Below, in pieces: positions 29,001 to 32,000 of a stretch of DNA of 64,000 nt. Source of the DNA: Liolophura sinensis (lineage: Eukaryota > Mollusca > Polyplacophora > Chitonida > Chitonidae). The stretch spans positions 9,931,704-9,995,703 of the forward strand of contig NC_088304.1 in the NCBI RefSeq assembly GCF_032854445.1. The letters are read 5' to 3'. Positions within the stretch are counted from its first letter, which is position 1, and the number at the start of each line of letters is the position of its first letter. The notes under the pieces were generated by a model. It was not told where the DNA came from. It was given only the letters and a program-made list of their open reading frames with translations, and searched no databases. The position numbers and the translations under genes were made by a program.

Positions 29001-32000
29001 TCTTTCCTCGTATGGCCTCAGGAGGATGCCAGCAGGGAAGGTGGGAAAGGTTAGATGTTTTCCTGTCCCAGGCACGAACTGCACCAAATCTATGTGTGTC
29101 TAAGCTCTGGGTTTGCAGAGCTGCTACCACGCGAGTACAGCAGAAACCAGGTAAAAATATACATGCTGTATGAAAATCTACTAAACTTAGCAAGAAACTT
29201 TAGAACGTAGGAACACAAGAGCCCCAAATTATCAACAGATACTGGAAACAGGCATAAAGGATGTCATGGCTGAACAGGTAATTACTATCTGCAATAAAGT
29301 GAAAAATTTGCATATGCAAATACTTGGACCCAGCCTCTACCAAACAAAACAACTGATGGTACAGAAAATGACAACTTGAGTGCAAAACTTACTTACCTGT
29401 ACAGTATTGTCTTCTGGCATGAAGGAACAAAACTTACTTACCTGTGCAGTATTGTCTTCTGGCACGAAGGAACAAAACTTACTTACCTGTACAGTATTGT
29501 CTTCTGGCACGAAGGAACAAAACTTGCTTACCTGTACAGCATTGTCTTCTGGCATGAGGGAACAAAACTTACTTACCTGTACAGTATTGTCTTCTGGCAT
29601 GAAGGAACGGAACATGGCTTCAAAGTAACTGCAGCGTGCAGCCAGGATTGCCTTGTGGGCGGGGATAGCCACTCCATCTAACATCAGGGTGATGTCACAA
29701 AACTCCACCCCACCTGACTTAAGAAACGCCTCAAGGTCCTTCTCCAGAGAGTTGGCTGAAAGTGTTACAGTACAAATGCAGCTACAGTTATAGATGTCTT
29801 ACTGTGAAGTGAATAGATTGCTGTGAAGTGAATAGATTGCTGTGAAGTGCAGCATGGAATACAACTGTGCTTTTAATTATACATCCACCAAATTTTATAG
29901 TCATAAATGTAAACTTTTCACTCGCTCAACTTATATCAACTGAATTACATGTATTAAATATGGAGGGGGCCTCTGTGGCTAAAGTGGTGAGAGTGCCTAC
30001 ACAGTGCAGTGACCCAGGAGCCTCTCCCCAATGTTTTATTCACGCAGATGCAGCTGCGAAAACATGGGGCAGCCTTTTTTTGAACCTTTGATGTCTAAAT
30101 AGCATGCTTCACAGCTTCAGAAGTCCAAAACCAGGTTTTAATGATCTTCACAATTTATTCCTGCTGTGTAGCCTACCTTATTTTTGTCTAATATAGTATA
30201 ATTTCTTAATTATCTTATATTATCAGCCATAGTTCTCAGAATATTGCCCACTGGTTTTTATTTCCCTATACCTTCCCTTGTTATTTTTCACCTCCTCACC
30301 CGCTTCCCACCGCCTCTTGTGGGTAAATTGCCTGGATCTGTGAGCTCTCCAATAGTCCTGTTTCGGCCTTTTTACATGCATTTCTTAAATTATCCTGCGT
30401 TCTAGCCCTGCTGAAAGATTTGCCACTGGGAGAGGTTCCAAAAAGGCCACTCCATGTTCCTTGTAGTCACTCAGTGTTGACACTGTGTCCCTTTCACATA
30501 ATGTTACACTCTGATCTAACTGTTTCCGCTCGTCAGTTTTGAGACATCTCTCTAACATGCCTATATTCTGGATGTGGTTCTTGTTGTTGTTGTTGTTATT
30601 ACTCTACCTTGGAAGGAGTCGCAATATGGTTCTGGTAGCATTCGGACATGAGGCATCTGTCGGCGGCGCACAATCTCAACCATCAGCGGAGGTTCCAGGC
30701 TCTCAAACTCTTTACTCATCACAATCTGGTTATAGTTGGTCTCCTTGACGATGAAGCGCAGACAAAATTCCTGAGGGCAAGAATTACAAAATTTACAGCA
30801 ATCTATTCACTGCTTTAGACTCATAGCTGTAAATGGGTTCTGTAATAAAACATACGAATGAAGAATGAAGAAGTCACCATGTAAATGTAATTGGTGTCAC
30901 AAGCTTTGAACCATTAAGTCCCGGCCAAACAGATATAACCACAAATGACGCTGTAGTACTCTTTCTGATGCTATTCAAGAAAATTTGCCCTATGTGACAT
31001 CAAACCTGCCCTTAATGTAACAAAGCAGTCTTATTTTTTTGCCATTTATCTCTTTGAAATTGTAATTTTATGATGACTTCTGGGTTATGTCTTGCCAGGG
31101 TCACTCTCTACACTATTTTGCATTGTACATACAGTTTCTTAAACAGAAGCCCAAGCACTAGAATCGAATAAGTGCTAAAATAGCATATGGCTGACTAATT
31201 TTAAACACTGAGTCTGGTTTCTCTTATGAGTGGATCAGTTCTCTTTGATCACAGCCCTGAAACTACTGATGATCTCTCCCACACCTTTAGGAAGTCCAGT
31301 TTGAGATGCGAGGCGTTCTGTAGAGCTGCCAGGACATTCTTGTGGCCAATACACGCCTCCAGGAACTGCACACACAATTGCTCCAGGCGCGACATGTGGA
31401 ACTACAACAACAACAGCAACAGCACCTGTCAGGTAAACTATACATAACAAAAATTCTTGACGTTATGTATCTTTCGTCTGACCGAACTGCCAGGGGTGCA
31501 TGTTATGAAGTATGGTGCACGACTCTTTTAAATATCGATAAATAAATAATGTTTATCCAATGAATTACAGCCATAGAATAATTTGCTCTAGCATTTTGAT
31601 TTATTTTATTGATTTATTTCATTGGTGTTTACACCATATATATTTCACTTACACGAAGGCGGCCAGCAATATGGTGTCAGAAAACCAGGCAGAGCCCTTG
31701 GGAAACCCATGACATTCCACGACCAGGTTGCACACCTTCCCACCTATGGCCAGGGTGGAAGCCTGCATGAGCTGGACTTGAACTCACGGCTACCGCATTG
31801 ATGAGAGGCTCCTGGGTCATTGTGCCGCACTTTGGCATTTCCAGGTAAGCATGAGGCGTCAAGATATCCATGATGTTACATGCACCAGCCACTTTAATTA
31901 CCCTACTTTATCAAACTTTCTGCATATGAATAAGCAACTTTCTGGGCAATTTATGTCTTATGATTTGATTCCAGGGACAAAACTACACTGGTTGGATTTG

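Follow-up and report, generated by a model that had tools for sequence, protein, structure and literature searches.

For a human interferon-induced transcript, Turri, Cuin and Porter reportedly described in 1995 a minisatellite that supplies several splice donors; the gene is said to be 6-16 (IFI6) and its repeat unit to measure 12 bp, with two or more of these donors used in cDNA. Intron change by tandem duplication was reportedly treated by Zhuo in 2007. Neighbouring donors are also familiar as tandem alternative splice sites and GYNGYN donors (excerpts of PMC2878309 and PMC1779574), which the former describes as sites 2-12 nt apart, and duplication of a coding segment that contains a proto-splice site can give rise to a new intron (excerpt of PMC2891723). 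The choice between copies of a donor has been followed in minigenes (PMC9225289, from the portion of text available). When two identical CAG/guaagu donors were combined with 365-nt introns, the upstream donor was exclusively used. Exon definition is stated to apply to introns longer than about 250 nt, and in short introns, with splicing defined across the intron, the downstream (last) donor was favoured.

Here we describe a tandem array of donors in LZTR1 of a chiton, in assembly GCA_032854445.1, which was published as Liolophura japonica (PMC11068029, in excerpt) and whose species was corrected by the authors to Liolophura sinensis (PMC12441733). The array lies in the window, the whole 64-kb stretch of DNA that was analysed, and the positions of its features are collected in Table 1.

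Table 1. Features of the LZTR1 array and the neighbouring exons (positions in the window)
Feature	Position	Strand	Evidence or remark
45-bp minisatellite across the exon-intron junction	29383..29608	-	TRF: 5.0 copies, 94% matches, score 410
Donor 1, CAG/GTAAGT, last exon base 29577	29571..29579	-	sequence
Donor 2, CAG/GTAAGC, last exon base 29532	29526..29534	-	sequence
Donor 3, CAG/GTAAGT, last exon base 29487	29481..29489	-	sequence
Donor 4, CAG/GTAAGT, last exon base 29442	29436..29444	-	sequence
Donor 5, CAG/GTAAGT, last exon base 29397	29391..29399	-	sequence
First in-frame stop (TAG) past donor 5	29337..29339	-	sequence
BTB2 exon (exon 17 of the earlier note), ended by donor 1	29577..29755	-	179 nt, open frame, BTB match
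Acceptor TTTCAG of the BTB2 exon	29761-29756	-	read from sequence
Intron downstream of donor 1	28634..29576	-	943 nt; holds copies 2-5 if donor 1 is used
Next exon, ends ...NNRLQ	28484..28633	-	starts 28633 after TTTCAG acceptor; open frame
Preceding exon	30608..30770	-	boundaries by eye; without Pfam match

The identity of the gene, proposed earlier as LZTR1 with the array at its BTB2 exon, was confirmed by homology. The kelch exons upstream of the array matched the solved kelch domain of Leucine-zipper-like transcriptional regulator 1 in the PDB (E 2.7e-121) and also matched Pfam kelch families. The joined BTB2 exon pair, consisting of the array exon and the next exon, matched Pfam BTB (1.2e-19), and a Pfam BACK match was present (0.0003). 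The gene has a kelch propeller followed by two BTB-BACK modules, the BTB1 module being recognized by eye only, and its best match is LZTR1. In whole-genome searches of one assembly (609.46 Mb in 632 contigs, of which C1 has 96,433,062 bases), the two BTB2 exons matched this locus at 97-98%, while the next best of 16 genome matches reached 38%. Neither a further copy of LZTR1 nor a retrocopy that would show which junction is used turned up in these searches, and the array itself had one occurrence in the genome, with a 100% match. The start of the next exon had been placed correctly, directly behind its acceptor, and the intron between the preceding exon and the BTB2 exon measures 852 nt. A 26-bp, 3-copy array on the minus strand at window positions 37726-37804 stops just short of the acceptor region of one of the LZTR1 kelch exons, and thus a second LZTR1 splice site borders a tandem array.

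All five donors that the earlier note had listed were recovered at their positions on the minus strand, and every copy does keep a GTAAG donor (GTAAGT in four copies, GTAAGC in copy 2). By a simple consensus match count, the donors are of equal strength except in copy 2. The array is in frame and free of stops, as had been claimed, and the frame remains open through the five copies to the TAG at 29339. The proposed 45-bp unit agreed with the period found by TRF, but its division into 30 exonic and 15 intronic bases did not, since TRF cuts the unit into 32 exonic and 13 intronic bases; any such cut of a tandem unit is arbitrary in phase. The whole array has five variable sites; copies 1 and 5 agree at all 45 bases, and one change is common to copies 3 and 4. 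If the older state is that of copies 1 and 5, each of the five changes is A to G or T to C. Collapse of the array is unlikely because HiFi reads of the assembly average 8,347 bp (14x; excerpt of PMC11068029), far more than its 226 bp. The array is real, and the claim made for its reading frame is right. As a matter of anatomy, donors 1 to 5 could yield BTB2 with 0 to 4 extra 15-residue units, as had been suggested.

With 5.0 head-to-tail copies of 45 bp, the array falls among minisatellites (unit roughly 10-100 bp) and, like the 6-16/IFI6 kind, has a consensus donor in every copy with the first at the exon end. What it has in common with the array attributed to Turri and colleagues is a tandem repeat whose copies offer splice donors; it differs in its unit, 45 bp against a reported 12 bp, and in that LZTR1 donors 2-5 are predicted sites. 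As in tandem alternative splice sites and GYNGYN donors (excerpts of PMC2878309 and PMC1779574), neighbouring donors could alter the protein in small steps, but the LZTR1 donors lie 45 nt apart, outside the 2-12 nt spacing, and were made by duplication. As in the excerpt of PMC2891723, duplicated splice signals reshape a gene; in LZTR1, however, an existing junction was multiplied, no new intron is evident, and the intron's own acceptor precedes 28633. The minigenes of PMC9225289, as presented in the available portion, have in common with LZTR1 the CAG/guaagu donor word and long flanking introns, whereas they are designed constructs with two donors in transfected cells and LZTR1 is a natural array of five. 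Donor minisatellites in chitons were absent from the literature matches listed, which is not proof of absence.

To find comparable junction arrays, the genome was searched for donor words that occur three times at spacings of 20-50 bases, with CAGGTAAGT, CAGGTGAGT and AAGGTAAGT as words. Among the matches listed, 15, 14 and 19 distinct arrays, respectively, were counted by eye, a total of 48; the stretch covered by these matches was C1, C2 and C3 to 23.3 Mb for CAGGTAAGT, C1 to 46.4 Mb for CAGGTGAGT, and C1 to C12:12.7 Mb for AAGGTAAGT. The arrays were fetched, and the sequence preceding the first copy was judged by eye for the end of a coding exon. By this judgement, a coding exon ends at the donor of the first copy in 6 of the 15 CAGGTAAGT arrays, 8 of the 14 CAGGTGAGT arrays and 3 of the 19 AAGGTAAGT arrays. 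One of the 15, L020, was not judgeable because the array extends past the fetched piece, and two doubtful arrays of the AAGGTAAGT set (L053 and L058) were excluded from the count. The comparator set of 18 comprises these 17 of the 48 sampled arrays plus L022, taken from the list of a reversed-word control; L021, from the same list, was excluded. The LZTR1 array is therefore not singular in this genome. The earlier description of it as unusual holds for a gene, but not in the sense of unique, given 18 other judged junction arrays, and the genome-wide set is a more interesting finding than the LZTR1 array alone. Some arrays are very long: in L020, which runs past the fetched piece, a 44-bp unit containing CAGGTAAGT is repeated about 67 times, and L015, whose upstream sequence is without a clear coding exon, has about 64 copies of 36 bp.

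Homology supported 10 of the 18 comparators. Pfam matches were obtained for SMAD MH2 (L019, 6.9e-11), GH31 (L012, 2.5e-13), SNF2 (L035, 6.9e-6), an iron hydrogenase-like protein (L040, 3.1e-13) and a protein of the BMS1/Tsr1 type (L045, 3.7e-11), together with alpha-L-fucosidase (L039, 0.00017, below the cut-off) and ankyrin (L060, 0.00049, just below the cut-off). PDB matches identified 2-oxoglutarate dehydrogenase (OGDH; L041, 3.7e-21, with a Pfam value of 0.0071, below the cut-off), RNA polymerase III RPC1 (L010, 4.2e-9) and an ABCC transporter (L044, 1.3e-15), the last two without a Pfam match. The other eight were called from a coding-looking open frame alone: L013 had no match in Pfam or PDB, L014, L018, L022, L047, L051 and L066 had no Pfam match, and L042 was likewise called from its frame. 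The RPC1, OGDH and BMS1/Tsr1-type exons, the three tested, each had one genome match in a search blind to stretches reading N. At the SMAD locus, the following exon, which ends in SSMS and a stop, is intact behind the array.

Each of the 18 comparators was scored for whether any further consensus-like donor in its array is usable without a stop or a frameshift; for L010 and L044 the first donor was set by hand. No further donor was usable in 14 of the 18, and at least one was usable in L012, L039, L060 and L066. Since further donors bring a stop or a frameshift in those 14, which include the RPC1, OGDH and BMS1/Tsr1-type loci, working mRNA there should use donor 1. A downstream donor was closer to consensus than donor 1 in seven of the 18, six of them among the 14, as measured by a simple match count and not by a splice-site model. 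Provided that these genes work, position and not strength would decide for donor 1 in the comparators, in agreement with the minigenes of PMC9225289.

The explanation that we favour, and consider probable, is that the minisatellite on this LZTR1 junction is recent and neutral and that splicing takes place mainly at donor 1. A tandem duplication may by chance have spanned the exon-intron junction of the BTB2 exon and may then have grown into the five-copy minisatellite; because the repeat unit contains a complete donor, so does every copy. The BTB2 exon would probably be defined across itself, since it is short and lies between two introns of more than 250 nt, and its acceptor would then pair with the nearest donor, which is donor 1. 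The exon-proximity rule, as far as it is set out in the available portion of PMC9225289, likewise predicts donor 1 for introns of 852 and 943 nt. With donor 1 in use, copies 2-5 would be intronic and the protein unchanged, and a minor share of splicing at later donors would do no harm, since both the length of the unit and its frame happen to permit it. Consistent with the neutral reading, like arrays, mostly with unusable further donors, are found at the exon ends of other genes among the sampled loci. Several points count against it. The LZTR1 array is in frame and stop-free over its full length, unlike most comparators, and variation is confined to its inner copies, with copies 1 and 5 identical, a pattern that neutral drift need not give. 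The coding call in 8 of the 18 comparators is an open frame alone, and the minigene rule derives from transfected cells with two donors, not five. The array looks like a mostly harmless side effect of a genome rich in repeats and not like a tuned switch.

The in-frame property was also compared across the set. Unit length is divisible by three in eight of the 18 comparators (L012, L022, L035, L042, L047, L051, L060 and L066) against six expected, which is near chance, and five of these eight (L022, L035, L042, L047 and L051) reach a stop before the second donor. The frame is open across the whole array in LZTR1 and in L060, the sole other complete case among the 18, and in the GH31 array over the first copies only. 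The chance of no stop was 0.88 for LZTR1 and 0.98 for L060; an open array is expected in both because the changes are so few. Four of the changes among LZTR1 copies alter an amino acid and one is silent, the expected fractions being 0.73 and 0.24, and silent changes were not in excess among array copies, although the five LZTR1 changes give little power. Selection on the copies at the protein level was considered and rejected: changes are few in LZTR1, in L060 and in the first seven GH31 copies, and none of the three gives a signal.

A second fully in-frame, stop-free donor ladder is present on the minus strand at L060 and L068 (G000 C8:1478600-1481450), where the ankyrin-like exon of L060 ends in an 11-residue unit (VSSVDANALDK type) with seven AAG/GTAAGT donors, the first included. 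At L012 (G000 C1:26351470-26356030, plus strand), a 39-bp unit, which reads in frame as 13 residues, is repeated about 19 times behind the GH31 exon, and five further donors precede the first stop.

It is unlikely that LZTR1 carries a working isoform ladder, in which at least two of the five donors would be used meaningfully and would add 15 to 60 residues stepwise to BTB2, perhaps by tissue or by individual copy number. Such a ladder would gain from junctions that are all in frame and stop-free, from donors equally strong except in copy 2, and from the human precedent of a minisatellite supplying several donors. It conflicts with the comparators whose further donors cannot serve productively, and no sign of protein-level selection was seen, though five changes give little power; the exon-proximity rule, in the portion of PMC9225289 available, also speaks against it. 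The earlier note had proposed a donor ladder that can tune a loop of BTB2. This proposal received no positive support, as 14 of the 18 comparators would be broken by further donors, 8 of the 18 units are divisible by three and selection left no sign; tuning of BTB2 by this route is possible but unsupported.

Intron-centred proximity would instead make the last donor (29397) the main one, so that the chiton protein would normally carry 60 extra residues. The array is open to donor 5, with a stop only afterwards, and a downstream preference under intron definition is described in the available portion of PMC9225289, but the introns of 852 and 943 nt lie outside the short-intron class of that work and the rule would break most comparators (14 of 18), which makes this outcome very improbable. 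We give almost no credence to an assembly error, or to a copy number so variable that the five-copy form is atypical. The array is known from one assembly only, and minisatellites are usually polymorphic in copy number. An error is opposed by the HiFi mean of 8,347 bp against a 226-bp array (excerpt of PMC11068029) and by copies that differ at known sites, which argues against simple read slippage.

Minisatellites are common in this genome, which speaks for the neutral reading. Within 124 kb of sequence, the 64-kb window included, 17 arrays with a period of 29-59 and at least 2.9 copies make up 4.5% of bases; with arrays this frequent, it is inevitable that some of the many donors of an animal lie within one. 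These 124 kb were not picked for donors (half being this window), and in 2 of the 17 arrays, that of LZTR1 and one other, the founding unit holds a donor where a coding-like exon ends. Triples of CAGGTGAGT 20-50 bases apart gave 735 matches against 30 for the reversed word, with single words at 10,097 against 2,731. For CAGGTAAGT, triples numbered 301 against 158 and single words 9,807 against 4,854, so that the triple ratio indicates no excess per word, and for AAGGTAAGT triples numbered 119 against 71; all triple counts overlap within arrays. On C1 and C2, 14 distinct arrays were counted by eye for CAGGTAAGT and 6 for its reversed word. A stricter pattern, AGGTAAGTAAG twice, found the LZTR1 array only (2 matches), and its reversed control gave 28. 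Enrichment of arrays at donors is not claimed, the evidence being mixed: CAGGTGAGT is strongly over-represented, and CAGGTAAGT is not once word abundance is taken into account. The excess of CAGGTGAGT triples over the reversed word is far above that of CAGGTAAGT. By rough extrapolation from 6 and 8 loci, the genome may hold about 25 CAGGTAAGT and about 105 CAGGTGAGT junction arrays.

A bolder possibility, which we regard as doubtful, is that donors are preferred birthplaces of minisatellites in this chiton. Something like a hundred introns, or more, would then start with several to dozens of near-identical donors, and a strict nearest-to-exon rule would silence most of them, leaving a reservoir in which in-frame arrays (LZTR1, the ankyrin-like L060 and the GH31 L012) could become protein-length ladders. 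Taken alone, the LZTR1 array is a curiosity; as part of the set, it belongs to a natural experiment on donor choice among neighbouring copies. Because the arrays vary in unit length, copy number and strength at the exon ends of conserved genes, public RNA-seq (five tissues, SAMN35319765 to SAMN35319769) makes the exon-proximity rule directly testable at many loci. Gene prediction may misplace exon ends in such repeat-rich genomes.

Elsewhere in the window, a 30-bp, 3.1-copy array on the plus strand (5003-5096) starts exactly at AGA/GTGAGT after a short coding-like stretch, ESARNFEYDDLYLHFFLDLPK, and looks like another junction array; its exon found no support in Pfam or PDB searches. Similar translated fragments lie on the minus strand near 39750, 35250 and 26650, which suggests a dispersed short repeat family.
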